From: Emticicia sp. CRIBPO
GTDB lineage: Bacteria > Bacteroidota > Bacteroidia > Cytophagales > Spirosomataceae
NCBI RefSeq assembly: GCF_009905725.1
Contig: NZ_JAAAKV010000013.1
Span: 1 to 64,000 of the forward strand
Length of the DNA: 64,000 bases
Direction of reading: 5' to 3'
Numbering within the stretch: the stretch's first letter is position 1; every line of letters starts with the position of its first letter. Made by a program: the position numbers and the translations under genes. This document shows positions 28,839 to 62,277 of the stretch, one piece after another. Under the pieces are notes generated by a model, which was given only the letters and a program-made list of their open reading frames with translations, did not search any database and had not been told where the DNA came from.

Positions 28839-28855
28839 AGTGTCAATTTTACACA
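28839..28855. promoter_or_regulatory. AraR-type operator candidate (orphan copy)
   Basis: AGTGT-N7-ACACA matches the TGTGT-N7-ACACA motif at nine of ten arm positions with the same spacing. No gene starts nearby on either strand, and a terminator-like hairpin lies 12 bases further on. Confidence 0.5.
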
Positions 28856-28867
28856 ATTTAAAGCATG

Positions 28868-28898
28868 AAAACTACCGGATACCTTTCCGGTAGTTTTT
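28868..28898 (+). terminator. Rho-independent terminator-like hairpin
   Basis: AAAACTACCGGA pairs perfectly with TCCGGTAGTTTT (12 bp, 6-base loop) and is followed by T on the plus strand. No plus-strand gene precedes it. It might instead end minus-strand transcription from the LacI-type gene, though the T run is poorer in that direction. Confidence 0.7.
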
Positions 28899-29053
28899 AT
28901 ATCGGTAATTTTAAGAATTTTTTTAATGCCGGCGTGTCAATGACAGCGTTTCAGTTAAGCAGTCATAAAAGAAGTCTGAGGGGGATATTACGGAGGAGTT
29001 TCACAGAAAAGTACAATTGAACTCCGGAGCGGAGAGGTTTGTGACAGTATACT

Positions 29054-30085
29054 TCAGAGTATAAGCTTCATAGAGCTTTCCCTGATCAATATTTCACTTT
29101 GTATAATCTCTTCTTTTAAGTCTGTCGCACTACTTCCCTTGTGCAGAAGAAAGTCAAAGTAAATCTGTGCGGCTTGTTTGCCGAGAGCTTTACTTCTCTG
29201 ATCCACGGATGAAAGAGAAGGTTCGATGATCGGGGTGAATTCTTCGTTGGCAAAACCAAAGATCCCGAGGTTTTCAGGTACCTTTATGCCTAAATCTCTC
29301 GCAACATGCCAGACACCCAGCGACTGGTGGTCTGAGGTGGTGAAGAAAGCATCCGGCGGGTGGCTTACCGACATTAATTCCCGGGCAGCTTCCGTAGCTT
29401 TTTCCTGTGAGAGGACATCGTCAATAATAAAATTTTCAGGTATCTGTAAATCATATTCCTCTATAGCCTGGATATAGCCTTCCTTCCGTCTCCTGAAAGT
29501 GGTAAGATGGCTGGGGCCTCCCAGAAAGGCGATTCTGCGGTAACCTTGTTCAATCAGGAGCCTGGCAATGCTGTAGGAAACTTCCTTGTTGTCATTAAGA
29601 ACCTTGTAGCTGTTTACCTCATCCATGCACCTGTCAAACTGGATCAGATCAATATTGTGTTTTCTGATGTTTTCCAGATGTGATACGGACTGTGTTTCAG
29701 CGGATACGGAGATCATGATGCAATTCACTCCCTGGTGGATAAGGGTATCTATGGCTTTACACTCCTGGGAGAAAGACTCATGCGACTGGCAGATGATCAG
29801 GCTGTAATTGTTTTTAAAGCACACTTCTTCAATGCCGGCGATGGCTTCTGAGAAAAAATACCGGTTGATATGCGGGACAATAACCCCGATAGTATTGGAA
29901 GAGCCCTGACGCAGGTTAGCGGCCTGCGAATTGTGTTTGTAATTCAGCTCCTGTGCTTTTTTCTTTACCCTGTCTATGACTTTTTTATTAATAGAAGGGT
30001 GATCATTCAAAGCCCTTGAAATGTATGAGGGTGAAATGTCCAGCTCCCTGGCCAGATCATAAATGGTGATTCTCTTTCGGCTCAT
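29054..30085 (-). CDS. LacI/GalR-family transcriptional regulator
   Basis: The 343-residue protein has the LacI N-terminal DNA-binding domain ('ITIYDLARELDISPSYISRALN', residues ~5-26, hinge helix 'AANLRQGSSNTIGVIVPHI') and a periplasmic-binding-like effector domain with 'YFFSEAIAGIEEVC', 'GGPSHLTTFRRRKEGY' and 'DAFFTTSDHQSLGV'. It binds a sugar or sugar derivative and represses or activates transcription. It is transcribed away from the zinc dehydrogenase and the glycoside hydrolase run, and a CG-centred dyad typical of this family lies before GH95 (31522) and in the interval downstream (28707). A local regulator of the hydrolase operon is therefore likely. The effector could be L-galactose, D-xylose or a derived acid. 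Confidence 0.92.
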   Translation of the reverse strand: MSRKRITIYDLARELDISPSYISRALNDHPSINKKVIDRVKKKAQELNYKHNSQAANLRQGSSNTIGVIVPHINRYFFSEAIAGIEEVCFKNNYSLIICQSHESFSQECKAIDTLIHQGVNCIMISVSAETQSVSHLENIRKHNIDLIQFDRCMDEVNSYKVLNDNKEVSYSIARLLIEQGYRRIAFLGGPSHLTTFRRRKEGYIQAIEEYDLQIPENFIIDDVLSQEKATEAARELMSVSHPPDAFFTTSDHQSLGVWHVARDLGIKVPENLGIFGFANEEFTPIIEPSLSSVDQRSKALGKQAAQIYFDFLLHKGSSATDLKEEIIQSEILIRESSMKLIL

Positions 30086-30366
30086 GTAAGCGGTTTGTCC
30101 TGGAACGGAATTCCTAAAGTGGCTATCTTTGGAAACGACCTGATGCTATCTGTTGAATAATACACCAAATATAAGATGTTTTGAGAATATTTACCCGATA
30201 TATTTAATATAAATACCCGCATAAAGGTATTTAAAGCGTAACTGAATTAGCTGTTTTCCGGTCAGTTTGAATCTGATTTGAGTAAAAGCGGCCTCAGCAC
30301 CGGGTGAGAAATTACAAGGCCTTCAAATTTGTAATTATTTATGTATTATATATTAATTATTGTATT

Positions 30367-30374
30367 TATATTTG
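30367..30374 (+). promoter_or_regulatory. -7 promoter element of the dehydrogenase gene
   Basis: TATATTTG matches TAnnTTTG at every defined position, 103 bases before the start codon. Its last two bases overlap the operator-like dyad at 30373-30389, so binding there would block initiation. No clear -33 element is seen. Confidence 0.5.
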
Positions 30375-30389
30375 TGTTTAATTGACACA
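30373..30389. promoter_or_regulatory. AraR-type operator candidate (dehydrogenase gene)
   Basis: TGTGT-TTAATTG-ACACA is a perfect 5-bp inverted repeat with a 7-base spacer. The same arrangement precedes araB and the arabinose-locus susC, which points to one regulator, most simply the AraR protein encoded at 61498. Confidence 0.65.
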
Positions 30390-30476
30390 TATTAATTTGT
30401 TACTTAAACGTCCGGATCATCATCAATATTGGCCGGAAACGGAGGAGGTTTCTTTCACTATTTATAGAAAATAAAG

Positions 30477-31505
30477 ATGAAAGCATTGGTTTGTAATCAA
30501 CCTGGTGAGTTCGAATATAGTATTAAAGCCAGGCCTGAGCTTGATAAGGGAAAAGCTATTATTAAAATAAAGCGTATCGGAATCTGCGGAACAGATTTGC
30601 ATGCCTACGAGGGGACCCAGCCTTTTTTTACTTATCCCAGGATATTGGGTCATGAGCTTTCGGGCTTACTGGTAGACTTTGACGGGGTTCAGGGGTTTAA
30701 CGGCGGCGAGGCTGTTACTTTTTTGCCGTATTTCAATTGTGGTGAATGTGTAGCCTGCAGGGCAGGAAAGCCTAATTGCTGTACTCAGATTCAGGTATGT
30801 GGTGTGCATGTGGACGGTGGGATGACGGAGTATATTGCTGTGCCATCTTCTTCTTTAGTACATGGTGAAGGGCTGAGTTATGACGAACTGGCACTTGTGG
30901 AGCCTCTGGCTATCGGAGCTCATGGCGTGAAAAGGGCAGATATAAAAAACGGGGAATTTGTACTTGTGATAGGTGCAGGTCCCATAGGCCTGGGCACCAT
31001 GGAATTTGTGAGGATTGCCGGAGGAAAAACCATTGCGATGGATGTGAACGAACATCGTCTGCAGTTTTGCCGGGAAAACCTGGATGTGCGTCATACCGTA
31101 AATGCCGGGTCCGAAAATGTAACGGAGCAACTGATGCAAATAACCAATGGTGATATGCCTACAGTTATCATTGATGCAACGGGCAACCTCAATGCCATAA
31201 ACAATGCTTTTCAATACATGGCCCATGGGGCAAGGTATGTTCTGGTCGGACTTCAGAAAGGAGATATCTCATTTGCACATCCTGAATTTCATAAGAGGGA
31301 AGGCACCTTAATGAGTAGCCGGAATGCTACGCGACAGGACTTTGAACATGTCATAAGCTGCCTGAAGAAGAAAAAAATAGACCCGACAAAATACATTACC
31401 CACAGGGTGAAGTTTGATGAAGTCAAGCACGAATTTGAAAACTGGCTTAACCCTGAAAATGGTGTGATCAAGGCCATGATTGAGATGCCGAATTCGCCTA
31501 TATAA
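30477..31505 (+). CDS. Zinc-dependent alcohol/polyol dehydrogenase (L-galactonate dehydrogenase-like)
   Basis: The 342-residue protein is a medium-chain dehydrogenase. Catalytic zinc ligands are C37 (GICGTD) and H59-E60 (GHE); a structural zinc site is formed by C88, C91, C94 and C102; the Rossmann motif GAGPIGLG lies at ~165-172. It lacks a signal peptide and is cytoplasmic. Overall sequence resembles the sugar-acid/polyol oxidoreductase branch (L-galactonate or L-gulonate 5-dehydrogenase, YjjN-like). It could oxidise a product of L-galactose or L-fucose released by the GH95 enzyme, or an arabinose/xylose-derived polyol. It lies between the LacI-type gene and GH95 and has its own AraR-type dyad, so it belongs to the arabinose-responsive set. 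Confidence 0.85.
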   Translation: MKALVCNQPGEFEYSIKARPELDKGKAIIKIKRIGICGTDLHAYEGTQPFFTYPRILGHELSGLLVDFDGVQGFNGGEAVTFLPYFNCGECVACRAGKPNCCTQIQVCGVHVDGGMTEYIAVPSSSLVHGEGLSYDELALVEPLAIGAHGVKRADIKNGEFVLVIGAGPIGLGTMEFVRIAGGKTIAMDVNEHRLQFCRENLDVRHTVNAGSENVTEQLMQITNGDMPTVIIDATGNLNAINNAFQYMAHGARYVLVGLQKGDISFAHPEFHKREGTLMSSRNATRQDFEHVISCLKKKKIDPTKYITHRVKFDEVKHEFENWLNPENGVIKAMIEMPNSPI

Positions 31506-31521
31506 TTTTTGTATTCAATTA

Positions 31522-31535
31522 TTCAATCGATTGTA
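31522..31535. promoter_or_regulatory. LacI-type operator candidate (GH95 operon)
   Basis: The core CAATCGATTG is a perfect 10-bp palindrome flanked by symmetric T and A, as in the copy at 28707-28724. It lies about 100 bases before the GH95 start and is the only dyad seen before the five-gene hydrolase run. Confidence 0.6.
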
Positions 31536-31635: not shown

Positions 31636-34095
31636 ATGAGAAAAACTATCTTTTTTTGTCTTCTTCTGACTTCTGCAGCTTGTTTTGGTCAAGAGAGCAA
31701 AAGACTGAAGCTTTGGTACACACAGCCTGCAGGTCAGACCTGGGAAAATGCACTTCCGATAGGCAACGGCCGGCAAGGGGCCATGATTTATGGTAATGTC
31801 GAAAAAGAGGTGATCCAGCTGAATGAGCATACTGTGTGGAGTGGTGGGCCTAACCGGAATGATAACCCTGCTGCATTGGCTTCTTTGCCTGAAATCCGGA
31901 AACTGATTTTTGATGGGAAACACAAAGAGGCGGAAACGCTGGCCAATAAGACCATCATCACCAAAAAATCCCATGGACAAATGTTTCAGCCGGTAGGCCA
32001 TCTTAACCTGACTTTTACAGGGCATGAAAATTTTACTGATTATTACCGTGAACTGGACATAGAGAAAGCGATCAGTAAAACAACTTATAAGGTCAACGGG
32101 GTCACTTATACCCGTGAAGCCATTGCTTCTTTTGGCGACAGGGTAATTGTCGTGAAAATTTCCTCAAGTAAACCCGGGAGTGTCTCTTTCTCTGCTCACT
32201 ATAGCTCCGCTCAGCGAAACAAAGCTTATGCCGTAAGCCCGTCCGGAGACCTTACCATCTCAGGGACGACCAGTGACCACGAAGGCGTAAAAAGCCAGAT
32301 CAGGTTTAAGGGAATGACACGGATTAAAACGGAAGGGGGGAAAGTAAGTACTACAGATACCTCATTGAATGTTTCGGGAGCCGATGCTGCTTTTTTGTTT
32401 ATCTCTATCGCTACGAACTTCAATAATTACCACGATGTCAGCGGGGATGAAAAAAAGAGGGCAAATGACTTTCTTGATAAATCTTCCGGAAAGAAATATG
32501 CTGCTATTCTCAGTGCTCATATTGCCGGGTACCAAAAATACTTTAACAGGGTGAAAATCGACCTGGGGAATACGACGGCCGCTGATTTGCCTACGGACCA
32601 GCGTCTGAAAAACTTCAGAACTGCTGATGACCCGGCACTGGTTTCACTTTACTATCAGTATGGCAGATACCTGCTGATTTCCTCTTCGCAGCCCGGCGGA
32701 CAGGCTGCCAACCTGCAGGGAATCTGGAACAGCCGGATCAATCCTCCGTGGGACAGTAAGTACACCATTAATATCAATGCCCAGATGAATTACTGGCCGG
32801 CCGAGAAAACCAATCTCCCGGAACTACACGAGCCTTTCCTTCAATTGATCAAGGAACTGTCAGAAACAGGCCGGGAAACAGCCAGGGAAATGTACGGAGC
32901 AAGAGGCTGGATGGCCCATCATAATACAGACATCTGGCGTGCCACCGGAGCAATCGACGGGGCTTTCTGGGGAATGTGGACAGGTGGCGGAGGCTGGTTA
33001 AGCCAGCATTTATGGGAACATTACCTTTATAACGGGGATAAAAATTATTTAACGTCTGTTTATCCCGCCATTAAAGGGGCGGCTCTCTTTTATGTGGATT
33101 TCCTGGTTGAACATCCGCAATACAAATGGCTCGTAGTGAATCCGGGCAGTTCACCTGAAAACGCCCCGAAAATCCATGGCGGCTCTTCGCTTGATGCCGG
33201 AACTACCATGGACAACCAGATTGTATACGACGCCTTCAGCACAGCCATCCGGGCTGCAGGAATACTCGGGAAAGATGCGGGTTTTGCAGATACATTGAAA
33301 CAATGGAGAAGCCGTCTGCCTCCAATGCACATCGGGCAGCATAATCAGCTACAGGAATGGCTCGATGATGTGGATGACCCCGAGGATCATCACCGACACG
33401 TATCCCACCTTTACGGCTTGTATCCATCCAATCAGATTTCGGCATACAATACCCCGGAATTATTTGCCGCCAGTCGCAACACCCTGATTCAGCGTGGGGA
33501 TGTGTCTACCGGCTGGAGCATGGGGTGGAAAGTAAACTGGTGGGCAAAAATGCAGGACGGAAACCACGCCTATCGGCTGATCCAGAACCAGCTTACACCT
33601 CTTGGGGTGAATCCTGGTGGCGGAGGTACTTACAATAACCTGTTTGATGCCCATCCGCCTTTTCAGATAGACGGCAATTTTGGTTGTACTTCCGGGATCA
33701 CTGAAATGCTCATGCAGAGTTCTGACGGAGCGATTCACCTGCTTCCCGCCCTTCCTGACGCCTGGCCTTCCGGTAGTATCACAGGGCTGCGGGCCATTGG
33801 CGGTTTTGAGATCGTCGAGATGCAGTGGAAGCAATCCAAACTGGTAAAACTCGTGGTAAAATCCAATCTGGGAGGAAATCTGAGGTTACGCCTGCCGAAT
33901 GCATTGAAACAAACAAACGGTTCGGGTATTAAAATGGCCAAAGGAACTAACACCAACCCTTTTTATTATACCGAAAAAACATCCGCCCCGGTCATATCAG
34001 ACAAATCAACCATCAAGCCGCTGCAGTTAAAAGAAACAGTGCTGGTGGACGTGGAAACTGCTAAAGGGAAATTATACACATTTATTTCAAAATGA
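31636..34095 (+). CDS. GH95 alpha-L-fucosidase / alpha-L-galactosidase
   Basis: The 819-residue protein has a signal peptide (FFCLLLTSAACFGQ) and the full GH95 layout: an N-terminal beta domain starting 'LWYTQPAGQTWENALPIGNGRQGAM', an (alpha/alpha)6 barrel and a C-terminal beta domain. Key barrel segments are 'NINAQMNYWPAEKTNL' (Asn residues that activate water), 'NPGSSPENAP' with the general acid E508, and 'FQIDGNFGCTSGI' with a conserved Asp. It inverts alpha-1,2-fucosyl or, in plant-glycan loci, alpha-L-galactosyl linkages. In an arabinose-centred locus a terminal L-galactose on arabinoxylan side chains is a plausible target. It leads the hydrolase run (15-base gap to the next gene) and has a LacI-type dyad upstream. 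Confidence 0.94.
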   Translation: MRKTIFFCLLLTSAACFGQESKRLKLWYTQPAGQTWENALPIGNGRQGAMIYGNVEKEVIQLNEHTVWSGGPNRNDNPAALASLPEIRKLIFDGKHKEAETLANKTIITKKSHGQMFQPVGHLNLTFTGHENFTDYYRELDIEKAISKTTYKVNGVTYTREAIASFGDRVIVVKISSSKPGSVSFSAHYSSAQRNKAYAVSPSGDLTISGTTSDHEGVKSQIRFKGMTRIKTEGGKVSTTDTSLNVSGADAAFLFISIATNFNNYHDVSGDEKKRANDFLDKSSGKKYAAILSAHIAGYQKYFNRVKIDLGNTTAADLPTDQRLKNFRTADDPALVSLYYQYGRYLLISSSQPGGQAANLQGIWNSRINPPWDSKYTININAQMNYWPAEKTNLPELHEPFLQLIKELSETGRETAREMYGARGWMAHHNTDIWRATGAIDGAFWGMWTGGGGWLSQHLWEHYLYNGDKNYLTSVYPAIKGAALFYVDFLVEHPQYKWLVVNPGSSPENAPKIHGGSSLDAGTTMDNQIVYDAFSTAIRAAGILGKDAGFADTLKQWRSRLPPMHIGQHNQLQEWLDDVDDPEDHHRHVSHLYGLYPSNQISAYNTPELFAASRNTLIQRGDVSTGWSMGWKVNWWAKMQDGNHAYRLIQNQLTPLGVNPGGGGTYNNLFDAHPPFQIDGNFGCTSGITEMLMQSSDGAIHLLPALPDAWPSGSITGLRAIGGFEIVEMQWKQSKLVKLVVKSNLGGNLRLRLPNALKQTNGSGIKMAKGTNTNPFYYTEKTSAPVISDKSTIKPLQLKETVLVDVETAKGKLYTFISK

Positions 34096-34110
34096 TTTTT
34101 TTAACACCTA

Positions 34111-35808
34111 ATGATTTCAGAAATGAGAAATTCTAAAGTTAAAACATGGCTGGTATGTCTGGTCACCATGATCGCAGTACAGGCAGCTTACTCCCAGACA
34201 ACCATTACCAATCCCATACTGACAGGTTTTTACCCTGACCCGAGCATAGTCAAGGTGGGGCCTGATTATTATCTCGTTAATTCAACGTTCTCTTATTTTC
34301 CCGGGCTGCCTGTTATGCACAGCAAAGACCTGAAAAACTGGAAGCAGATTGGAAACGTGATAGACCGCCCTTCCCAGATGGATTTTATGGGTGAAAGGAT
34401 AACGAGGGGTTTATTTGCTCCGGCTATCAGCTATTACAAAGGTGTTTTTTATGTGACCTGTACGGATATAGACCACGACGGGAATTTTGTCGTAACGGCC
34501 ACCAATCCGGCCGGGCCGTGGAGCAACCCTGTTAAAATACCACAGGTGAGAGGCATTGACCCATCCATTTATTTTGACGAGGAAGAAGACAAAGCGTATA
34601 TCATTTATAACAGTGATGCACCTGATTATAAGCCCCTCTATTCCGGGCACAGGACGATCAGGATGTATGAGTTTGATTACAAGACACTCAAGGTCAAAGG
34701 TGAAGAAAAACAACTGGTGAACGGGGGAGTAGATCTTTCCAAAAAGCCGGTGTGGATTGAAGGACCGCATATTTTCAAAAGAAACAACTGGTATTATCTG
34801 TATGCTGCAGAGGGTGGAACTTCAGTAAACCACTCAGAGGTAATACTCAGGAGCAAATCAATTTGGGGACCCTATGTGCCTTATGAAGGCAACCCGATTC
34901 TGACACAGAGAGATTTGCCTGCCGACAGAAAACATCCCATAACGTCAGCCGGTCATGCCCAGTTTGTGGAAGGTCCTGACGGTAAAATGTATTCTATTTT
35001 CCTGGCGGTAAGGCCTTACGAAGGCGATTTTTACAACACAGGCCGTGAAACATTTATTGCTCCTGTGGAATGGATAGGCGATTGGCCTATGATAGAACAC
35101 GGCGAGAAAGCACTTCCGTATACCTATAATACCCAGATTAAAGAGGTCAAACAAAAGGGAGCTTTGCCTCATTCAGGTAATTTTCAATATACCATGTTAT
35201 TTGATAAAGGCCTCGATCTCTCAATGCTGTTTATGAGGACCGTCGACAGCAGTTCTTTCTCGGTTTCCAAGAAAAAAGGACTTACTTTGAAACTGAAGCC
35301 TGAAACCATTTCTGAACTCGGGAATCCTTCCTTCATCGGGAAACGTCAGCAACATCTGTACAGCGTAGCTGAAACGGAGCTTGATTTCACCGCCAATTCC
35401 CCTGCCGAAAAGGCGGGTCTGGTAGCTTTCCAGGATGAGCGTCATTTCTATTTTATTGCCAGAACAAAGAATAATGAGGGCAAGGATGTAATCCAGCTGC
35501 TGAAAAGTAAGCCAAAGGAAAAGTCAATGGAGGTACTTGCGGAGTTTCCACTAGGCCCGAAAACAGGCAAGGTAGGCCTGCGGATCAAATCAGAAGGAGA
35601 TGCGTACAGCTTTTATTATACCACAGATTCCAAAAAATGGATTGTGCTGAAAGAAAAAGAGGATGGTAAATTTCTGAGTACAAAAGTAGCGGGAGGATTT
35701 ACAGGCTCACTGTATGGGATGTATGCTACTTCTTCGGGCGAAAAGGCCGGCGGAGAAGCTTCGTTCAGGTATTTGAAATACAGCGGGAATGATCCTATGT
35801 ATAAGTAA
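34111..35808 (+). CDS. GH43 family beta-xylosidase/alpha-L-arabinofuranosidase (subfamily 12-like) with C-terminal beta-sandwich
   Basis: The 565-residue protein has a signal peptide (WLVCLVTMIAVQAAYSQ) and a five-bladed propeller with 'FYPDPSIVKVGPDYYLVNSTF' (general base Asp) and 'PGLPVMHSKDLKNW', the pattern of GH43 subfamily 11/12. The Asp and Glu of the other blades follow ('GIDPSIYFDEE', 'WIEGPHIFK'). Residues ~350-565 form the GH43_C2-type beta-sandwich. It would remove terminal arabinofuranosyl or xylosyl units. An ATG at 34123 (MRNSKVK) is an alternative start closer to the signal core. It sits 15 bases after GH95 and 23 before GH127, so one transcript is likely. Confidence 0.92.
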   Translation: MISEMRNSKVKTWLVCLVTMIAVQAAYSQTTITNPILTGFYPDPSIVKVGPDYYLVNSTFSYFPGLPVMHSKDLKNWKQIGNVIDRPSQMDFMGERITRGLFAPAISYYKGVFYVTCTDIDHDGNFVVTATNPAGPWSNPVKIPQVRGIDPSIYFDEEEDKAYIIYNSDAPDYKPLYSGHRTIRMYEFDYKTLKVKGEEKQLVNGGVDLSKKPVWIEGPHIFKRNNWYYLYAAEGGTSVNHSEVILRSKSIWGPYVPYEGNPILTQRDLPADRKHPITSAGHAQFVEGPDGKMYSIFLAVRPYEGDFYNTGRETFIAPVEWIGDWPMIEHGEKALPYTYNTQIKEVKQKGALPHSGNFQYTMLFDKGLDLSMLFMRTVDSSSFSVSKKKGLTLKLKPETISELGNPSFIGKRQQHLYSVAETELDFTANSPAEKAGLVAFQDERHFYFIARTKNNEGKDVIQLLKSKPKEKSMEVLAEFPLGPKTGKVGLRIKSEGDAYSFYYTTDSKKWIVLKEKEDGKFLSTKVAGGFTGSLYGMYATSSGEKAGGEASFRYLKYSGNDPMYK

Positions 35809-35831
35809 CTACCCGGATATTTTTACAGCAT

Positions 35832-38123
35832 ATGAAATCATTGAAAGCGAAACTGTTACCTATAATATTGTTTATTGTCCTGGGTGTACGGGCCTCAGCA
35901 CAGATGCAGACGTTTGGACTGCAGGAGGTACGGCTTACAGCAGGAAATTTTAAAAATGCCGGTGAGGTTGACAGGAAATATATCCTGGCACTAAACCCTG
36001 ACCGGTTGCTGGCTCCCTATCTCATTGATGCGGGCTTGCCTGTAAGAAGCAACCGCTACGGCAACTGGGAAAGTATCGGTCTTGACGGGCATATCGGCGG
36101 ACATTATTTGTCCGCGTTGTCCATGATGTATGCTTCTACCGGAGATGCGGAGTTAAAAAGACGCCTGGATTATATGGTTGGTGAACTGGCCCGTTGCCAG
36201 GAAAAGAACGGGAATGGTTACGTAGGCGGTATCCCGCAGGGAAAAGTATTCTGGGAACGCATCCGTAAAGGAGACATTGACGGAAGCAGTTTCGGGCTCA
36301 ATAATACCTGGGTGCCTTTGTATAATATTCATAAGCTTTTTGCGGGTTTACATGATGCCTGGCAATACACAGGGAATCAGCAGGCCAGGACAGTGCTGAT
36401 CGGACTCGGCAACTGGTTTAATGACCTGATTGAACCGCTTTCGCAAGACCAGATCCAGCAGGTTCTACGTACTGAGCATGGAGGTATGAACGAAGTGTTC
36501 GCTGACTTGTATGTACTTACCAGGGACAAAAAGTTTCTTGATGCCGCTCAGAAATTGAGTCACAAAGCCATTCTCGAGCCATTGCTTCTGAAACAGGACC
36601 GCCTTACCGGCCTTCATGCCAATACGCAGATCCCTAAGGTAATCGGATTTGAAAAAACTGCCCTGTTAACCGGGAATAAAGCCTGGTCTGAGGCGGCAAG
36701 ATACTTCTGGTATAATGTTTCCCATACCCGCAGTGTGGCTTTCGGAGGTAATAGTGTGCGTGAGCACTTTAACCCGGTTAATGATTTCGGACAGATGATA
36801 AAGTCGAATCAGGGGCCTGAAACCTGCAATTCGTACAACATGCTGCGGTTGACCAGGGCTTTGTTTCTTGATAATAATGATGTGAGCTATCTCGATTATT
36901 ATGAACGCACGCTTTACAATCACATTCTTTCGAGTCAGCATCCTGAAAAGGGGGGCTTTGTTTATTTCACGCCTATCCGCCCTAATCATTACAGGGTTTA
37001 TTCGCAGCCGGAAACCAGCATGTGGTGCTGTGTCGGTTCAGGAATTGAGAATCATGCCAAATATGGTGAACTGATCTACAGCCATTCGTCAGAGGATATT
37101 TTTGTCAATCTTTTCATTCCTTCAGTGCTTAACTGGAAAGACAAGGGAGTTCAGCTGACCCAGAAGACGGATTTTCCCTATAAAAATGAGACAGAAATAG
37201 TCCTGAGCCTGAAAAAGGCAAAAACATTTACATTTAATATCCGTCGTCCGGAGTGGGCAGAAAGCTTTGAAATCTTCGTGAACGGGAAAATTCAGGCCAT
37301 TGAAAGTAAACCTTCGTCCTATATTCCCCTGCATAGAAAATGGAAAACCGGTGACACCATATCGATCAGGTTTAAGACCACCACCCGCCTGGAATATCTT
37401 CCCGACAAGTCAAACTGGGCGGCTTTTGTGCATGGTCCGATTGTACTGGCAGCCAAAACCTCTGTTAAAAACCTGGACGGGCTTTTTGCAGACGACAGCC
37501 GGATGGGGCATGAAGCGGGCGGCAGGTTGTACCCTCTGAATGAAGCCCACGCTTTAGTAGGGAAACCTTCTTCCTATGTTTCACGACTTGATCCGTCTGG
37601 TCCGCTTCAGTTCAGGTTAGATTCGCTGACACTGCAGCCGTTTTTTGAGATTCATGAGGCCAGGTACCAGATGTATTTCCAGACCTACAGCCCGGAGGAA
37701 TATCAGGCCCGGAAAGCCGCTCTTAAACAAGAAGAGGCAGCGGCACTGGCACTGGAATCCCGTACCCTGGATAAAGTGAATTGCGGTGAACAGCAACCTG
37801 AAGTGGATCACCTTTACAGGGGTGAAAAAAGTGTAAGCGGTAGTGACGAAGGCCTTTTCTGGAGGATGACCCGCTCTTATATAGCCTATCAGTTCCGGAA
37901 CAAAAATCAGGAAGGTAAATGGATGGAAATAAGTGTCTTGGACAATCTGAAGCCTGATGCCATTAAGGTGGAAATCAATGGCGGTCCGGCAGACATTATT
38001 TTATCAGCAGATAAAATGATCAGGATAAAAATTGAAGGTATGGAAGTAATTGACCTGAAAATTACAGCTCTTAACGGATCTGTTTCGCCGCGTTTTCACC
38101 AGATCAGAATCTTAAAGAATTAA
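35832..38123 (+). CDS. GH127 beta-L-arabinofuranosidase
   Basis: The 763-residue protein has a signal peptide (LLPIILFIVLGVRASAQ) and an (alpha/alpha)6 barrel (DUF1680) with 'SYNMLRLTRALF' preceded by E-T-C, and 'SMWCCVGSGIENHAKYGE' carrying C399 and C400. In the characterised enzyme HypBA1 the nucleophile is a Cys of this pair within a zinc site of Cys and Glu, and both elements are present here. The final ~120 residues form a DUF6805-like beta domain. It removes beta-L-arabinofuranose, known from hydroxyproline-rich plant glycoproteins and some pectic side chains. Its presence indicates a target more elaborate than plain arabinoxylan or arabinan. Confidence 0.93.
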   Translation: MKSLKAKLLPIILFIVLGVRASAQMQTFGLQEVRLTAGNFKNAGEVDRKYILALNPDRLLAPYLIDAGLPVRSNRYGNWESIGLDGHIGGHYLSALSMMYASTGDAELKRRLDYMVGELARCQEKNGNGYVGGIPQGKVFWERIRKGDIDGSSFGLNNTWVPLYNIHKLFAGLHDAWQYTGNQQARTVLIGLGNWFNDLIEPLSQDQIQQVLRTEHGGMNEVFADLYVLTRDKKFLDAAQKLSHKAILEPLLLKQDRLTGLHANTQIPKVIGFEKTALLTGNKAWSEAARYFWYNVSHTRSVAFGGNSVREHFNPVNDFGQMIKSNQGPETCNSYNMLRLTRALFLDNNDVSYLDYYERTLYNHILSSQHPEKGGFVYFTPIRPNHYRVYSQPETSMWCCVGSGIENHAKYGELIYSHSSEDIFVNLFIPSVLNWKDKGVQLTQKTDFPYKNETEIVLSLKKAKTFTFNIRRPEWAESFEIFVNGKIQAIESKPSSYIPLHRKWKTGDTISIRFKTTTRLEYLPDKSNWAAFVHGPIVLAAKTSVKNLDGLFADDSRMGHEAGGRLYPLNEAHALVGKPSSYVSRLDPSGPLQFRLDSLTLQPFFEIHEARYQMYFQTYSPEEYQARKAALKQEEAAALALESRTLDKVNCGEQQPEVDHLYRGEKSVSGSDEGLFWRMTRSYIAYQFRNKNQEGKWMEISVLDNLKPDAIKVEINGGPADIILSADKMIRIKIEGMEVIDLKITALNGSVSPRFHQIRILKN

Positions 38124-38139
38124 TCTTTTCCAAAGCTAA

Positions 38140-39756
38140 ATGAAAAATAAAATCTTAATCATTACTTCCGGGTTCTTCCGGTCCCTGGTCTTCATTTTTT
38201 TAGCGGCCACAAGTGTAAAGGCTCAAAAAAATGATGGTGTGTCTCCGCAGCAAAAGCAAGCCCGTAATCCAGTCATATTCGCTGATGTGCCTGATATCGC
38301 TATTATCCGTGTGGGCAAAACCTATTATATGAGCAGCACCACCATGCACATGAGTCCTGGGCTGCCGGTCATGAAATCTCAGGACCTGGTTAACTGGCAA
38401 ATGGTGAGCTATGCTTACGACACCCTGGCTGATGTAGACGCTCTGAACCTGAGCAATGGTAAAAGCACCTATGGACGAGGGTCATGGGCCAGCAGTTTTC
38501 GTTATCATAAAGGGAAGTTTTATTTGACGACTTTTGCTCAGACTACGGGCAAAACCTATGTTTTTACTACTGATAACGTAGAAAAAGGGCCATGGAAAGA
38601 AGTCTCATTTAAGCCGTCCTATCATGATCATACCCTGTTTTTTGACGATGATGGCCGCGTGTACATGATTTATGGTGCGGGGAAACTTAAAATGATAGAA
38701 CTCAATGAAGATCTTTCGGGGATAAAGCCCGGAACAAGTGAAACTGTACTTATCGAAAACGCCAGTACGCCATCAGGAACACAGGGCGGGCTGCCTGCTG
38801 AAGGTTCACAATTGTTTAAAGTGAATGGGAAATACTATCTGTTTAATATTTCTTGGCCGCGGGGGGGAATGCGTACCGTGTTGATCCACCGGGCCGACAA
38901 AATCACAGGCCCCTGGGAAGGCAGGGTGGCTCTTCAGGACCTGGGAGTAGCCCAGGGAGGGTTGATCGACACGCCGGATGGCAAATGGTTTGCCTATCTT
39001 TTCAGAGATTACGGTGGTGTGGGTCGTATCCCTTACCTCGTACCCGTGGTCTGGAAAGACGGCTGGCCGGTGTTGGGAGAAAACGGTAAGGTGCCTGAAT
39101 CGCTTGATCTGCCTGTCGGGAAAGGATTGATTCCCGGTATTGTAGCCTCTGACGAATTTAACAGGAAGAAGAAGGAAAAGGAACTGCCGCTAGTCTGGCA
39201 ATGGAATCACAATCCGGATAACAGCCTGTGGTCAGTCAGGGAAAGGCCGGGTTTTATGCGTCTCAAAACAGGCAGAACTGATACCTCTTTTGTGATGGCC
39301 AGGAATACACTGACACAGCGGACCATCGGGCCCGAAAGTTCGGCCAGCACTCTTGTTGATGTTACTAAAATGAAAGCAGGCGATTTTGCAGGTTTGTGCC
39401 TGCTGCAGAAAAACTTCGGACAGGTAGGAGTGAAGGTAGGTAACGGCACTAAATCTATTGTTATGGTCAGTGCAAACACCGGAAAACCTGTAGAGATTTC
39501 TACGATACCACTGAATCAGAACACAGTGTATTTTAAGGCAGAGTGTAACTTTAAGGATCGAAAAGACACTGGCCGTTTCTTTTACAGCCTGGACGGCAAA
39601 ACCTGGGTGTTCATCGGTGAACCGCTTAAAATGCCTTACACCATTCCTCATTTTATGGGGTATCGTTTTGGATTATTCAACTACGCCACCCAAAATACAG
39701 GCGGACATGCCGACTTTGATTATTTCCGGATAGAAGACAGAATTTCTGAAAATTAA
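38140..39756 (+). CDS. Second GH43 enzyme (subfamily 12-like)
   Basis: The 538-residue protein starts with a signal peptide (SGFFRSLVFIFLAATSVKAQ). Its propeller begins 'VIFADVPDIAIIRVGKTYYMSSTTMHMSPGLPVM' (shown here in parts: DVPDIAIIRVGKTYYMSS), the GH43_12 variant in which the catalytic base Asp lies in 'DVPD'. Later residues include 'SYHDHTLFFDDDGRVYMIYG' and 'GLPAEGSQLFKVNGKYYL' with the general acid Glu. The C-terminal ~190 residues are a beta-sandwich. It is 27% or so different in pattern from the other GH43 here by eye, so the two likely cleave different linkages; no exact identity was computed. Gaps of 16 and 31 bases join it to its neighbours. Confidence 0.9.
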   Translation: MKNKILIITSGFFRSLVFIFLAATSVKAQKNDGVSPQQKQARNPVIFADVPDIAIIRVGKTYYMSSTTMHMSPGLPVMKSQDLVNWQMVSYAYDTLADVDALNLSNGKSTYGRGSWASSFRYHKGKFYLTTFAQTTGKTYVFTTDNVEKGPWKEVSFKPSYHDHTLFFDDDGRVYMIYGAGKLKMIELNEDLSGIKPGTSETVLIENASTPSGTQGGLPAEGSQLFKVNGKYYLFNISWPRGGMRTVLIHRADKITGPWEGRVALQDLGVAQGGLIDTPDGKWFAYLFRDYGGVGRIPYLVPVVWKDGWPVLGENGKVPESLDLPVGKGLIPGIVASDEFNRKKKEKELPLVWQWNHNPDNSLWSVRERPGFMRLKTGRTDTSFVMARNTLTQRTIGPESSASTLVDVTKMKAGDFAGLCLLQKNFGQVGVKVGNGTKSIVMVSANTGKPVEISTIPLNQNTVYFKAECNFKDRKDTGRFFYSLDGKTWVFIGEPLKMPYTIPHFMGYRFGLFNYATQNTGGHADFDYFRIEDRISEN

Positions 39757-39787
39757 CCAACCTTGATACGTTTAACAGCCCTGAAAA

Positions 39788-41743: not shown

Positions 41744-41860
41744 CGGAAAATGCATGAACTGGCGACCCCTGGCAAGGGCAGATAAGGCTTTTATTTAATC
41801 CAGGCAGAAGAGGTTCTCAGGGCCTGTTTTAGTTTTTTGTGAGGGTTTCGCAATTATTGA

Positions 41861-43606
<1,746 letters not shown>

Positions 43607-43682
43607 GGGAGTTGTAGAGTACTTCTCCTGCTATTTGATGTTTTTTACCCATTTCTAATGACATTTGTAAATTTTCAGACAC

Positions 43683-47130: not shown

Positions 47131-47138
47131 TAATTTTG
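47131..47138 (+). promoter_or_regulatory. -7 promoter element before the arabinose-locus susC
   Basis: TAATTTTG matches TAnnTTTG perfectly and lies 13 bases before the first of two tandem operator-like dyads, 113 bases before the susC start. The dyads would cover the transcription start region. Confidence 0.5.
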
Positions 47139-47151: not shown

Positions 47152-47168
47152 TGTGTAGAATCGACACT
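47152..47168. promoter_or_regulatory. AraR-type operator candidate (susC, site 1)
   Basis: TGTGT-N7-ACACT matches the shared motif at nine of ten arm positions. It is followed by a perfect copy whose centre is 22 bp away, two helical turns. Confidence 0.6.
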
Positions 47169-47173: not shown

Positions 47174-47190
47174 TGTGTGAAACTGACACA
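47174..47190. promoter_or_regulatory. AraR-type operator candidate (susC, site 2)
   Basis: TGTGT-GAAACTG-ACACA is a perfect copy of the shared motif. Together with site 1 it forms a tandem arrangement on one face of the helix just downstream of the candidate promoter, as expected for strong repression. Confidence 0.65.
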
Positions 47191-50200: not shown

Positions 50201-50380
50201 AATGTGCTTTCTAAAGCGAGGATCTATGTTTCGAGCCAGAATTTACTGACACTTACCAAGTATTCAGGTTACGATCCTGAGGTAGCCAACCGCGGTAATA
50301 TTCTGACGAATGGCGTTGATTACGGAAGTTATCCCCAGGTCAGAACTATGTCAGTAGGGATAAACTTAGGATTTAATTAA
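47252..50380 (+). CDS. SusC-type TonB-dependent outer-membrane transporter (arabinose locus)
   Basis: The 1042-residue protein carries a signal peptide (KSIRLFSLMPLLLLLSVSAFSQ), a carboxypeptidase-regulatory-like domain ('IKGTVLNEKNEPLPGVSVS'), 'EIVVVGYGTQKKSSLTGAV', a plug with 'VRVRGVGSISLNPNPLYVIDG' and 'AIYGSRAANGVILITTKSG', and a 22-strand barrel ending 'TMSVGINLGFN'. The ATG at 47294 (MRKSIRLF) would give a more normal signal peptide and is an alternative. It imports oligosaccharides released at the surface by the esterases and hydrolases of this locus, using TonB energy. Two tandem dyads of the AraR type lie in its promoter region, so it should be strongly induced by L-arabinose. Confidence 0.96.
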   Translation: MLRVKFTSQSFNSKMRKSIRLFSLMPLLLLLSVSAFSQIKGTVLNEKNEPLPGVSVSLKGTQQGVSTDKDGRYSLNVGGSGTLIFSFIGFAPLEVAINGRTLIDVTLAEDEKILDEIVVVGYGTQKKSSLTGAVSSVSSKDLTALPVINAAQAIQGRVAGVSIVNNSSPGGDPVVRVRGVGSISLNPNPLYVIDGVPAGGLNSIAPSDIESVEVLKDASAAAIYGSRAANGVILITTKSGASGKMNINFNSYYGVQSAWKKLDLLNSQEYIKYGTALLTASGQPVPGRFSNMNTPVYDGATTTFAQTDNDWQDVMFRNAPVNDNQLSISGGTDKSKIYFSLGHFKQEGIIPFTDYSRQSIRINSDHKLAGFLSVGQTLMVSTDERRAERDGGGRSILMNTMRMVPYWPVSDPTKVGGYSTTAQGLDATDPENPMRIADHIQGNQIDRGYKMLGTFFANVKITDWLKYKFTLGGDYSNSIYTGFSPIYNDGNRSSINATLNENRGQYFSSIITNQLTFDKTIGKHVINLTAVSETQKARYKGIALSGQRPDNNIKQIQGASNVNGTTDLSESALISYVGRLNYEYSGKYLLGATIRRDGSSKFAPGNKWGTFPSVSAGWRISEEEFMKSIPAITELKIRGSIGVTGYNSIGDYDWQPLIQASNTIYPFGNASQLGSYFNRLGNTGLSWEETVMKNIGIDLSLFNNSINVTTEFYTRKTDGLLLSVPLPESVGYSQSPLANVGSMKNTGFELSLGYNISKRKLRSTLTGTFDLVRNEVLSLSTPNATINAGNSSDFGGFDITRTEVGHPIQSFYGWQVEGIFQNESEVAAANGKDGNAATPYQNAGTAAGDIKFRDLNNDGKIDSDDRTYLGSFMPKFSYGLNWSGTYQNFDFTVFFQGVQGNKVYSGTKVIGQGMLRLFNATTDVLNAWTPTNTDTDVPRAVSGDPNQNSRTSDRFLEDGSYLRLKNLSIGYTIPSDKIKSLTGNVLSKARIYVSSQNLLTLTKYSGYDPEVANRGNILTNGVDYGSYPQVRTMSVGINLGFN

Positions 50381-50409: not shown

Positions 50410-51954
50410 ATGAAGAAAAATATTTATTTAGCAGTTATGTTGACGCTGTTCTCCATTTCTGCGTGCGACGATAAAATACTTGATAAGGTAAATCCGAACG
50501 GTGTCACATTTGACACTTATTTCACAAACGACAGCGAATTGCTGGCAGGTGTAAACTCGGTTTATGCTGGGACGCAAGGCCTTGGTCTGGCGGCCAGAGA
50601 ATGGTTTTTTACCCATGACCTTAGAGGTGACGAAATGGCCACAGGCGGTGGTCAGCTGGAAACTCCACGTAATCAGTTGCTTATAGGTGTAAATGATCCG
50701 GGAAACTCCGTGTCGTCCTCTGTATGGACAGGCTGGTTTCGCGTGATCCACAGAGCCAATGTAGTCCTTGAGTCTACAACTAAGAATGTAGCTTTTTCAG
50801 ATGAAATAAAAAAGAGAGCCACAGGCGAAGCCAAATTTCTACGGGCGATGGCTTACTATGAATTGGGTACCTTGTGGGGTGGAGTGCCAATCTACACCGA
50901 ATTTGTAAAATCTGTAGAAAACAGCCTTCCCCGCTCTTCACAGACGGATGTATATGCCCAGGTGCTTAAAGACCTGAAAGATGCTGAGACCCTTCTTCCG
51001 GCTACCTACCCCGCCAAAGAGCTGGGAAGGGCTACCAAAGCTGCTGTTCAGACCTTAATGGCCAGAACCTATCTTCAGCAGGGAAATTATACGCTGGCTA
51101 AAGCGGAATTGGAGAAAGTTGTAAGCTCAGGGCTTTACAGCCTCGCAGCCAATTACCTGGACGTGTCAAACGAAGAGGGTGAGTTTAATTCGGAGTCGAT
51201 ATTTGAAATTGTTTTTTCGCCTTCAGGGGGATCGTTTAACTGGAGCGGGCCGGACGGTGATGGAAACTCTCTTCAGGAAGAGACGGTAAGAACACAGGAA
51301 TACTCAGCCATCGGATGGAGGAACCTTATCCCTTCCAATAAAATTCTGAATGAATACGAAAGACCAAGTAAAGGAGATGCCAAGCTGGATCCGCGTTATG
51401 ATATGTCTTTCTGGAAAGCCGGTGATAAGTTTAACAACGGAGCCAATACCATGACTGATGACATCGTTCAGGGTAACTCTTCTGTAGTAGATGGCAAAAC
51501 TATGAAAGTAAGCTGGAGGAAATATTCAGTTCTTTACAAATCTATGGAAGGTTTTGCTACCAGTGGTATTAACATGAGGGTCATGAGATATGCAGATGTT
51601 CTGTTGATGTTAGCTGAATGTGAGAACGAAGTAGGGACTGCGGCAAAAGCCATTCAGTTGCTGAACCAGGTAAGAAGCCGTCCTACTGTGGCTATGCCTG
51701 CCTATCCGACGGCTAACTATCCGGTTTCCAGCAAAGCTGAAATATTTAAGGCTATTCAGCATGAGAGGTTCGTAGAACTTTCGGCTGAGCAGGTCAGAAA
51801 CTTTGATATTATCAGATGGAGAAAAAATGGTAAGCTCACTGCCGAACCTTTGTCGTATTTTGTAAAAGGAAAACATGAATTGTTGCCTATTCCGCAAACA
51901 GAAATAGACAATAACCCAAAAATTGAAAATAAGGATCAGAATCCGGGATATTAA
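50410..51954 (+). CDS. SusD/RagB-type outer-membrane binding lipoprotein (arabinose locus)
   Basis: The 514-residue protein has a lipobox (MLTLFSISAC, Cys19) and SusD features: 'RVIHRANVVLE', 'RATGEAKFLRAMAYYELGTLWGGVPIY' (helix-pair signature), 'LMARTYLQQGNYTLAKAELEK', and C-terminal 'IFKAIQHERFVELSAEQVRNFDIIRW' followed by 'HELLPIPQTEIDNNPK'. It caps the SusC barrel and binds the glycan at the cell surface. It starts 29 bases after susC, and a strong terminator follows its stop, so susC and susD form a two-gene unit separate from the esterases. Confidence 0.96.
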   Translation: MKKNIYLAVMLTLFSISACDDKILDKVNPNGVTFDTYFTNDSELLAGVNSVYAGTQGLGLAAREWFFTHDLRGDEMATGGGQLETPRNQLLIGVNDPGNSVSSSVWTGWFRVIHRANVVLESTTKNVAFSDEIKKRATGEAKFLRAMAYYELGTLWGGVPIYTEFVKSVENSLPRSSQTDVYAQVLKDLKDAETLLPATYPAKELGRATKAAVQTLMARTYLQQGNYTLAKAELEKVVSSGLYSLAANYLDVSNEEGEFNSESIFEIVFSPSGGSFNWSGPDGDGNSLQEETVRTQEYSAIGWRNLIPSNKILNEYERPSKGDAKLDPRYDMSFWKAGDKFNNGANTMTDDIVQGNSSVVDGKTMKVSWRKYSVLYKSMEGFATSGINMRVMRYADVLLMLAECENEVGTAAKAIQLLNQVRSRPTVAMPAYPTANYPVSSKAEIFKAIQHERFVELSAEQVRNFDIIRWRKNGKLTAEPLSYFVKGKHELLPIPQTEIDNNPKIENKDQNPGY

Positions 51955-56516: not shown

Positions 56517-57653
<1,137 letters not shown>

Positions 57654-57696: not shown

Positions 57697-59634
<1,938 letters not shown>

Positions 59635-59790
59635 AATGACTTTATAGCCAGGAAGAGTAATGTGCTTGTTTAAGATAGCCTGCCTTCAGGAAGAATATTT
59701 TAGCAAGCCATTACATGACAAATGAACATGCCGGACAGGCAGGTTAATTCAAAAAAGCATTTCGTATCTAAACTAAAACAGTGATTAATT

Positions 59791-61332
59791 ATGAAAATGA
59801 GGTTTTTTTTATCTGTTCTGCTATTTGCCGGTCTGACCGCCGGTGCCCAGACCAAGATTACATTTAATACAGACTTAACCGGCCCACGGATCAATAAACA
59901 CATTTACGGGCATTTTGCGGAACACCTCGGGAAATGTATTTATGGGGGCATATATGTAGGAGAAAATAATACCAAAATTCCGAATGTACAGGGAATCCGG
60001 AACGATGTGGTTCAGGCTCTTAAAGAACTGAAAGTGCCTAATTTAAGATGGCCTGGCGGATGTTTTGCCGATACCTATCAGTGGAAAGATGGTATCGGGC
60101 CTAAAGCAGACCGGCCTAAAATGGTGAATGTCTGGTGGGGCGGTGTTACTGAAGACAACAGCTTCGGGACACACGATTTCCTGGATCTCTGTGAACGCAT
60201 CGGGGCAGAGCCCTACCTGGCCGGAAATGTCGGAAGCGGCACGGTAAAGGATCTGTCAGACTGGGTATCATACGTGAACAATCCCGGTGGAAGCCCGATG
60301 TCTGAACTCAGGAAGAAAAATGGCCGCGAAAAACCATGGAACGTTAAGTTGTGGGGTGTCGGGAATGAGGCCTGGGGTTGCGGGGGAAATATGACCGCCG
60401 AATACTATGCAAATATCTATCGCCAGTATGCTACGTTCATGACTGACTGGGATAACAACGCTAAACTTTACAAAATTGCGTCCGGGGCCACTGACGGTGA
60501 TTATGGCTGGACAGAAACCCTTATGAAAAATATTCCTCATAAAATGCTTGCTGGGGTGGCATTGCATCATTACTCGGTTTTAAGCTGGGAAGATAAGGGT
60601 CCGTCGGTAGATTTTACAGAAGCCCAGTATTTTAAAAGCATGCAGGAAGCATCGCAAATGGACGAATTTATCACAGGCCACAGCACAATCATGGATAAAT
60701 ATGACCCTGAAAAAAAGGTAGCCCTGATTGTCGATGAATGGGGTGGGTGGTATAACGTTGAGCCAGGTACAAACCCCGGGTTTTTATATCAGCAAAACAC
60801 CATGAGAGATGCTGTGATTGCCGGTTTAACACTGAATATTTTCAATAACCATGCGGATCGTGTGCGTGGAGCAAACCTGGCCCAGGTGGTGAATGTGCTG
60901 CAATCGGTGATTCTTACCAATGAAGAAAAAATGCTGCTTACTCCTACCTATCATGTGATGAAAATGTACAATGTCCACCAGGATGCAGCCCTCGTACCGA
61001 TAAATATAGAGTCGCCTTTATATGAATTCCAGGGTAAGGCCTTGAAAGCAGTGTCATCGTCAGCTTCCAAAGATGAGTCAGGGGCTATAAATATTTCATT
61101 GACCAACATTGATTACAGCAAAGCTCATGAGGTGGTTATCAACCTGAGAGGTGAAAGTTTTGCCAGGGTTTCAGGGCAAATCCTGAGTGCTGCAAAGATA
61201 AGAGATCACAATACTTTCGAGAACCCTCAGAAGGTTTCAATAAAGTCATTTTCAGGAGCTGTACTGGATAAAGGAATACTGAAACTGGTGATTCCGGCTT
61301 ATTCTGTAATCACTTTGAAGGTAACGAAATAA
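59791..61332 (+). CDS. GH51 alpha-L-arabinofuranosidase, secreted
   Basis: The 513-residue protein has a signal peptide (FFLSVLLFAGLTAGAQ), a TIM barrel with 'PNLRWPGGCFADTYQW', the general acid/base in 'WGVGNEAWGCGG' and the nucleophile in 'IVDEWGGWYN', and a C-terminal beta-sandwich. These are diagnostic of GH51. It releases terminal alpha-L-arabinofuranose from arabinan or arabinoxylan oligosaccharides in a retaining reaction, probably in the periplasm. It is close to its family's usual length of about 500. It lies just before the AraR gene, with a perfect inverted repeat between them. It supplies arabinose, the likely inducer and the substrate of the araBA genes downstream. Confidence 0.96.
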   Translation: MKMRFFLSVLLFAGLTAGAQTKITFNTDLTGPRINKHIYGHFAEHLGKCIYGGIYVGENNTKIPNVQGIRNDVVQALKELKVPNLRWPGGCFADTYQWKDGIGPKADRPKMVNVWWGGVTEDNSFGTHDFLDLCERIGAEPYLAGNVGSGTVKDLSDWVSYVNNPGGSPMSELRKKNGREKPWNVKLWGVGNEAWGCGGNMTAEYYANIYRQYATFMTDWDNNAKLYKIASGATDGDYGWTETLMKNIPHKMLAGVALHHYSVLSWEDKGPSVDFTEAQYFKSMQEASQMDEFITGHSTIMDKYDPEKKVALIVDEWGGWYNVEPGTNPGFLYQQNTMRDAVIAGLTLNIFNNHADRVRGANLAQVVNVLQSVILTNEEKMLLTPTYHVMKMYNVHQDAALVPINIESPLYEFQGKALKAVSSSASKDESGAINISLTNIDYSKAHEVVINLRGESFARVSGQILSAAKIRDHNTFENPQKVSIKSFSGAVLDKGILKLVIPAYSVITLKVTK

Positions 61333-61418
61333 GTCATTATCCGGAGAGGTTGAAATACTTTCGATTTATGCTGATTTCTATGAATTGGAATCGGCTGAAT
61401 TGAAAGGTTAATATTGTG

Positions 61419-61451
61419 AAATTCGTGAAAGTCTTTGATTTTCACGAATTT
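61419..61451. promoter_or_regulatory. Perfect 12-bp inverted repeat between GH51 and the AraR gene
   Basis: AAATTCGTGAAA pairs perfectly with TTTCACGAATTT over a 9-base loop, 87 bases past the GH51 stop and 47 before the regulator start. It may be a terminator, though the trailing T run is poor, or an operator. Its sequence differs from the TGTGT-N7-ACACA motif. Confidence 0.5.
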
Positions 61452-61497
61452 AAAATTGGATATATATTTATTCAATTTTTTTGTGCATTTTTAGGCA

Positions 61498-62211
61498 ATG
61501 AATAACGTATTGATGAAAAAATATCCTCACTCGACCAGGATACTTGTTGCTTTGGATTGCATAGTTTTTGGTTTCGATGGAGAACAGCTGAAGTTGCTTC
61601 TGATAAAAAGGAATTTTGAACCTGAAATGGGCAAATGGTCATTAATGGGTGGTTTTTTAGAATCAAATGAAGACCTCGAGGTGGCAACTAACCGCATTTT
61701 ATATGACCTGACAGGGTTAAAGGATATTTACTTTGAGGAAATTAAGAGTTTTGGAAAGGTTGACAGGGACCCGGTGGAGCGGACGCTTTCCGTCTGTTTT
61801 TTTGCATTGATTAATATCCATGCCCACGATCAGGATTCAGCCCGGGCCCAGAATGCCTATTGGATTGATTTAAAGAGCCGGCCGGATCTTATTTTTGACC
61901 ACAATGAGATGGTCAATATCGCCCTGGAAAGATTACGCTACAAGGCCGCATTGCACCCAATCGGCTTCGAGTTGCTGCCGGAACAATTTACCATTCCCCA
62001 GCTGCAGAAATTATATGAAGCCATTTATGATAGCCCGCTTGACAGGCGTAACTTCAGTCGTAAAATCCTTTCTACCCACCTGTTAATTGATACCGGGGAA
62101 AAGAACCAATACGGAACGACAAAAAAGGCAATCCTGTACAAGCTGGACAAAGAAAAATATCAAAGACAGTTTAATGCTTTCCATTATTTTATCTCAGATT
62201 CAATGAGATAA
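61498..62211 (+). CDS. araR: AraR: NUDIX-type transcriptional regulator of arabinose use
   Basis: The 237-residue protein has an N-terminal NUDIX-like domain (~10-140) and a C-terminal winged helix (~155-230, 'FTIPQLQKLYEAIYDSPLDRRNFSRKI'). The Nudix box is degenerate: 'GGFLESNEDLEVATNRILYDLTG' lacks the REUxEE catalytic glutamates, so it should bind rather than cleave a ligand. This is the NrtR/AraR branch; in Bacteroides AraR represses arabinose genes until L-arabinose binds. Genes for GH51 (upstream) and AraB/AraA (downstream, 73-base gap) fit this. A TGTGT-N7-ACACA dyad between it and araB, repeated elsewhere in the locus, is the best operator candidate. It is cytoplasmic, with no signal peptide. 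Confidence 0.9.
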   Translation: MNNVLMKKYPHSTRILVALDCIVFGFDGEQLKLLLIKRNFEPEMGKWSLMGGFLESNEDLEVATNRILYDLTGLKDIYFEEIKSFGKVDRDPVERTLSVCFFALINIHAHDQDSARAQNAYWIDLKSRPDLIFDHNEMVNIALERLRYKAALHPIGFELLPEQFTIPQLQKLYEAIYDSPLDRRNFSRKILSTHLLIDTGEKNQYGTTKKAILYKLDKEKYQRQFNAFHYFISDSMR

Positions 62212-62260
62212 AATATTTTTTTTGAAAAAAGACCGGTTTTAAAAAATAATTGAATTAAAT

Positions 62261-62277
62261 TGTGTCATTTTAACACA
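62261..62277. promoter_or_regulatory. AraR-type operator candidate (araB)
   Basis: TGTGT-CATTTTA-ACACA is a perfect 5-bp inverted repeat with a 7-base spacer, ending 7 bases before the araB start. Binding there would block transcription or translation initiation of araBA. Confidence 0.7.

Follow-up and report, generated by a model that had tools for sequence, protein, structure and literature searches.

Results

Probable operators of AraR in the arabinose locus

In this study, we analyzed the first 64,000 nucleotides of contig NZ_JAAAKV010000013.1 (contig C5; assembly GCF_009905725.1) of Emticicia sp. CRIBPO, hereafter the window, in which an inverted repeat, TGTGT-N7-ACACA, recurs across an arabinose locus. 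With a probability of about 0.93, these dyads would be the operators of AraR, an L-arabinose-responsive repressor of the NrtR family encoded in the same locus at 61498-62211. What was shown directly is that the sites exist, cluster and are conserved next to araR, and that the encoded protein belongs to AraR by sequence.

All five copies listed in the original prediction were recovered, at 28839, 30373, 47152, 47174 and 62261, and its mismatch tally was right: none at 30373, 47174 and 62261, and one each at 28839 and 47152. Both imperfect copies hold an intact GTGT-N7-ACAC core. The proposed 7-base spacer stands, and the proposed 5-bp arms reduce to four conserved base pairs (GTGT/ACAC) with a variable fifth base. 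The window contains three perfect copies (0.04 expected) and six cores (0.57 expected), counts that none of 100 shuffles matched; five or more sites with at most one mismatch (five found, 1.63 expected) were reached in 3 of 100 shuffles, which is weak on its own.

A matrix trained on 94 distinct 23-mers of relatives gave AATTGTGTCAAATTGACACAATT as the family consensus. The training sequences have a median score of 24.6 and a minimum of -7.4, and because of this minimum the set is taken to include some probable chance sites. The sites of the locus score 25.1 (28840), 25.4 (30374), 20.0 (47153), 25.2 (47175), 22.5 (62262) and 23.7 (76732); nothing else in the scanned parts of C5:1-95000 reaches a score of 8. 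The site at 76732 is a sixth locus site, beyond the window and upstream of another susC (C5:76882). When the 34 cores of the genome were scored over 15 bp, the six ranked 1, 2, 3, 4, 6 and 15, and rank 5 went to C37:383507. Two further positions were rejected as operators: 55152, inside the gene at 54560-56503, has a poor matrix score and is probably a chance occurrence, and C5:77876 lies within a gene by position and scores low. The consensus of the -7-like promoter box is TAnnTTTG. Such boxes lie upstream of three of the six operators, and the tandem pair has a single box in common; these are too few to fix the promoters.

Conservation beside araR in relatives

The best 80 of 170 araR loci (1,493,573 bases) came from Emticicia, Arcicella, Flectobacillus, Runella, Dyadobacter, Lacihabitans, Spirosoma and others. 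The original prediction had named copies before arabinose genes of related genomes as a check, and this was borne out: 78 of the 80 loci carry GTGT-N7-ACAC, with 106 sites in all, mostly before araB, araR or the gene for a family 51 glycoside hydrolase (GH51). For each of the 15 other spacers between 0 and 15, the count was 3 to 15 sites, spread over 3 to 13 loci. By raw count, six AT-rich 4-mer dyads come ahead of GTGT at spacer 7, but none of them is present in as many loci. By crude calls of open reading frames, 9 of the 106 sites lie inside such frames and 97 outside, with a gene start in reach for 96 of the latter. The genes behind the 97 are AraB (50), AraR (25), GH51 (11, five of which resemble the window GH51 at only 21-24%), AraA (2), GH95 (1) and a susC/LacI pair (1); four sites have AraB or AraR on one side and an unknown gene on the other, two have an unknown gene, and one has nothing in reach. 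A second set, the best 30 araR loci from 160 matching genomes of 200, has the core within 1.5 kb on either side of araR in every one of the 30 family loci fetched, window included. The two sets overlap and are therefore not independent.

The AraR protein

The protein at 61498-62211 scores above the cut-offs of PF00293, PF21906 and PF19368, with a Nudix domain followed by an AraR/NrtR winged helix. The closest solved protein is BtAraR of Bacteroides thetaiotaomicron (5bs6; 234.8 bits, 44% identity), compared with 102.7 bits and 34% identity for the Shewanella NrtR, SoNrtR (3gz5). Its arabinose pocket keeps R34, R86, H131, Y5, F36, G47, G48, F49 and F129 and has the change V92T; R86 and H131 discriminate little, because SoNrtR and the paralogs keep both. 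The Nudix signature is impaired, three of its four glutamates being replaced by eye. The gene clusters with arabinose catabolism, with araB, araA, araD, a symporter and an epimerase downstream. By its sequence, this Nudix/winged-helix protein is an AraR.

The window AraR shares 85-90% identity with proteins of 9 of 11 genomes from another genus (g27), and 66-78% with proteins of nine genomes in its own assigned genus. Horizontal transfer of the ara locus is possible.

Points against the assignment and alternative readers

Several observations weigh against reading the dyads as AraR operators. The genome scan (6,060,486 bases, 39 contigs) found the perfect 17-mer three times, all at this locus, as the original prediction would have it, whereas the looser forms showed no enrichment: 79 sites with at most one mismatch against 94 for the reversed control, and 34 cores against 49. 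Across 200 family genomes, TTGTGT-N7-ACACAA was counted 92 times, in 59 genomes, and its control 60 times, in 53 genomes, a modest excess. Little was gained with the consensus GTGTCAATTTGACAC at up to three mismatches (68 forward, 52 control). Since the core and one-mismatch counts are not above their controls genome-wide, counts alone are insufficient to establish the motif. Two of the 80 araR loci (L136 and L143) have no core, and no good variant was found there either. The upstream gap of the window araR also has no core, though many relatives have an operator before araR; autoregulation would therefore have to be indirect. Of the residues that contact bases, R180 and N181 are identical (2 of 6), K179R, K184R and R205K are conservative changes and K204T is not; in the account given in PMC4666351, all six (K179, R180, N181, K184, K204 and R205) are called absolutely conserved in AraR orthologues.

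The genome counts at or below control, and the shuffles that reach five sites at one mismatch, would suit dyads that are chance repeats, or hairpins of an mRNA or terminator, instead of operators. Yet three perfect copies appeared in none of the 100 shuffles, and the preference for a 7-bp spacer and the gene context are kept in 78 of 80 relatives; on the shuffles and the fixed spacer, a chance origin was rejected. By eye, the dyads at operon heads have short arms with no T run after them, which speaks against hairpins, and we give this explanation next to no weight. The features not due to chance are the clustering at the locus, the rank of the matrix scores and the conservation beside araR.

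The sites might also be read by another NrtR-family regulator of the same genome, which has six NrtR-type winged helices, window AraR included. The foremost candidate is an AraR-like paralog at C34:313 kb: it shares 43.4% identity with BtAraR and 52.7% with the window AraR, it keeps K179, R180 and N181, and its recognition helix is slightly nearer to that of BtAraR than the window AraR's is. In its arabinose pocket, however, F49 is replaced by tryptophan and F36 by isoleucine, and the core is absent from all 30 loci of this closest paralog (1.5 kb on either side; the best 30 from 118 matching genomes) and from the 16-17 kb stretches around the genome's five other NrtR genes, whereas it tracks araR in both locus sets. 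The C34 paralog was rejected as the reader because the core is missing from the 30 paralog loci and from the C34 stretch, and a reader other than AraR is in our view very improbable.

The paralog gene itself (C34:313251-313985) is matched at E ≤ 1e-90 by 118 of the 200 family genomes, and no obvious sugar cluster was seen among its scanned neighbours. A different dyad was also sought around the paralog, with nothing usable as a result; the filter of that search excluded arms built from two letters, TGTGT among them, and the search therefore cannot serve as a control for the TGTGT motif.

The site at 28839

The original prediction placed one dyad, at 28839, in a gene-less interval. The site is present and has no SusC gene; rather than a free-standing regulon member, it is part of a putative susC-type promoter. 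On the minus strand, positions 28910 to 28690 can be aligned with the region upstream of susC C5:76882, including a hairpin, the operator, and a LacI-type palindrome right before the ATG. The best 74-column piece of this alignment has a BLASTN E value of 1.7e-7. The local alignment score over the 220-bp stretch is 105, compared with a maximum of 50 in 500 dinucleotide shuffles, and when the operator was cut out the global score was 154, compared with at most 108 in 500 shuffles. The gap from operator to ATG is 133 bp at 28839 and 135 bp at C5:76732. The orphan ATG (28706-28704) has two codons and then a stop, and TBLASTN of the C5:76882 SusC against the region found no coding sequence, only one meaningless match (E = 6.8). 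The C5:76732 promoter is also present in Emticicia aquatilis (L111). On the strength of these alignments, we read 28839 as a putative copy of the C5:76882 susC promoter that lost its gene.

The intact, high-scoring operator (25.1) could also belong to a working regulon member from which a short RNA, or the TPR gene on the minus strand (28241-26526), would be expressed, and a hairpin with a T run directly behind 28839 is seen by eye on the plus strand. Against this stand the alignment with the susC promoter, which exceeds all 500 shuffles with the operator in or out, the matching gaps, the SusC coding sequence that was not found there, and Rfam, which gave no match in the window at the gathering threshold. 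We consider a working member unlikely, and retain the orphan promoter.

The dehydrogenase

The zinc-dependent dehydrogenase had been tied to the regulon through the dyad before it. Among the best 30 homologue loci from 178 matching genomes of 200, this tie is present in the window and in a genome of the same genus (G022), and absent from the 28 others, where no core was found and the best matrix score was 6.3; it was therefore seen only in two genomes of this genus. The G022 homologue (75%) has an operator scoring 28.7 at 49 bp upstream, and heads a related run of GH95, esterase, two GH43, fucosidase and another esterase, in an order that is not identical. In Lacihabitans soyangensis (L179) and Jiulongibacter sediminis (L158), no dehydrogenase homologue separates GH95 from the operator in front of it. 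No NCBIfam model scored above its cut-off with the window dehydrogenase, the best being PRK10083 (207.6 bits against 376).

A LacI-type palindrome

The palindrome CAATCGATTG occurs three times in the 6.06-Mb genome, always on this contig (28711, 31524 and C5:85953-85962), with none for the reversed control. The copy at C5:85953 precedes a run of genes for GH10, a sugar transporter of the major facilitator superfamily, and GH43; the shorter AATCGATT is also found before susC C5:76882, at 76869. The 80 araR loci hold the 10-mer CAATCGATTG only four times, and AATCGATT was seen once in eight loci viewed singly; given this rarity in the loci of relatives, the element is local. Its shape and neighbours suggest a LacI operator, and the two LacI-type regulators, at 29054-30085 and C5:75398-76561 (32% identical), are candidate readers. 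The CAATCGATTG sites are likely to form a local LacI-type regulon, and may provide the locus with a second control. Control by AraR and LacI together would be a local variation on the combination of AraR with a hybrid two-component system (HTCS) in Bacteroides. It is also conceivable, if improbable, that the locus is under two repressors, AraR and the neighbouring LacI-type protein, which would bind CAATCGATTG and respond to a probably xylan-derived signal, and that the gene-less promoter at 28.7-28.9 kb, which has retained both operators, is a decoy titrating both.

The regulator at C5:75398-76561 (L016:15398-16561) carries an N-terminal extension that weakly matches the zinc-binding ends of IS1/IS256 transposases.

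Features of the locus

The features of the window are collected in Table 1. Beyond the window, araB is followed by araA, araD, transaldolase, transketolase halves, an SSF symporter and an aldose epimerase. The transketolase is encoded as two overlapping halves (C5:67010-68828); a short transaldolase precedes them, and araD lies further upstream. A protein with a cyclic-nucleotide-binding domain is encoded near the cluster, at 25766-26341 of the window.

Table 1. Predicted operators, other elements and genes of the arabinose locus (positions in the window)
Feature	Position	Strand	Remarks
AraR operator (predicted)	28839..28855 (core 28840-28854)	.	within putative orphan susC-type promoter, minus-strand sense; score 25.1
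Promoter remnant (putative)	28690..28910	-	alignable with region upstream of susC C5:76882
LacI-type palindrome CAATCGATTG	28711..28720	.	inside putative orphan promoter
LacI-family regulator	29054..30085	-	candidate reader of CAATCGATTG
AraR operator (predicted)	30373..30389	.	overlaps TAnnTTTG box 30367-30374; core end 88 bp 5' of dehydrogenase
Zinc-dependent dehydrogenase (ADH_N/ADH_zinc_N)	30477..31505	+	first gene of glycoside hydrolase run
LacI-type palindrome CAATCGATTG	31524..31533	.	between dehydrogenase and GH95
GH95, GH43, GH127, GH43, GH97, esterase, FG-GAP genes	31636..47015	+	downstream of dehydrogenase
AraR operator (predicted), first of tandem pair	47152..47168	.	behind TAnnTTTG box 47131-47138; pair starts 22 bp apart
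AraR operator (predicted), second of tandem pair	47174..47190	.	core end 62 bp 5' of susC
SusC/RagA outer-membrane transporter	47252..50380	+	
SusD-like protein	50410..51954	+	
Alpha-L-arabinofuranosidase (GH51-type C-terminal domain)	59791..61332	+	
AraR (Nudix, NrtR/AraR winged helix)	61498..62211	+	no GTGT-N7-ACAC core in upstream gap
AraR operator (predicted)	62261..62277	.	core end 8 bp 5' of araB
L-ribulokinase AraB	62285..63922	+	araB of the window

Discussion

The operon limits, the binding of AraR and repression in this organism are inferred from Bacteroides by analogy. In the absence of arabinose, an AraR dimer bound to GTGT-N7-ACAC, where the site overlaps the promoter or closely follows it, would block transcription of the dehydrogenase-GH95-GH43-GH127 run, the susCD-esterase-GH51 run, the araB-araA-araD run and susC C5:76882. 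Arabinose bound in the Nudix domain may pull the two winged helices together, so that AraR would leave the DNA; uptake, side-chain cleavage and catabolism would then be induced together.

For the Bacteroides AraR, binding in mobility shift assays, release by L-arabinose and crystal structures have been reported (Chang et al. 2015, PMC4666351). That account gives AGTGT-ATTTGAT-ACACC, AGTGT-TACTTTT-ACACC and AGTGT-AAAAAAG-ACACT as BtAraR operators, reports AraR from 17 Bacteroides and 15 Prevotella species, and describes dual control by AraR and HTCS in Bacteroides. The original prediction had offered the link between motif and AraR as its own deduction; the assignment is supported, yet the operator core had already been published in 2015. 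A search of one literature library, judged by titles, found no paper on AraR operators in Cytophagales.

As far as the BtAraR (BT0354) regulon is described there, it and the window are alike in having a gene for an NrtR-family repressor inside the arabinose locus, the operator core GTGT-N7-ACAC with the same 7-bp spacer, tandem operators ahead of a main operon, the functions SusCD, GH43, GH51, GH97 and araBAD (under predicted control in the window), and an impaired Nudix signature in the regulator. They differ in the host, which by its relatives is of the Spirosomataceae type here and Bacteroides or Prevotella for the published AraR, and in the tandem pair, which stands before susC with starts 22 bp apart in the window and before araM with starts 24 bp apart in the BtAraR system. 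Unlike in the BtAraR system of that account, the window araR has no operator of its own, four of the six base-contacting residues are changed, and a LacI-type element lies nearby where Bacteroides has HTCS co-control. XylR (BT0791) of Bacteroides, another NrtR branch, is like AraR a sugar regulator for a pentose pathway in Bacteroidota, but for that of xylose, a comparison by pathway and not by operator sequence (PMC3878776, PMC4666351, as far as these describe it). SoNrtR (3gz5/3gz6) shares with the window AraR the Nudix and winged-helix DNA-binding dimer; unlike AraR, it is described as answering to ADP-ribose and to NAD metabolism (PMC4666351).

In sum, this study found a known operator and a known kind of regulon, here over a gene cluster for the use of plant fibre, in a new host group, together with a few local details, which is useful and not surprising. 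For two genomes of a single genus, the zinc dehydrogenase is assigned to the arabinose regulon, and what looks like a regulon site lacking a gene can turn out to be a left-behind promoter. The operator published for Bacteroides and Prevotella is extended to a distant branch of Bacteroidota with the longer consensus AATTGTGTCAAATTGACACAATT, and the arabinose regulons of Emticicia, Dyadobacter, Runella, Lacihabitans and their relatives are therefore readable from DNA.

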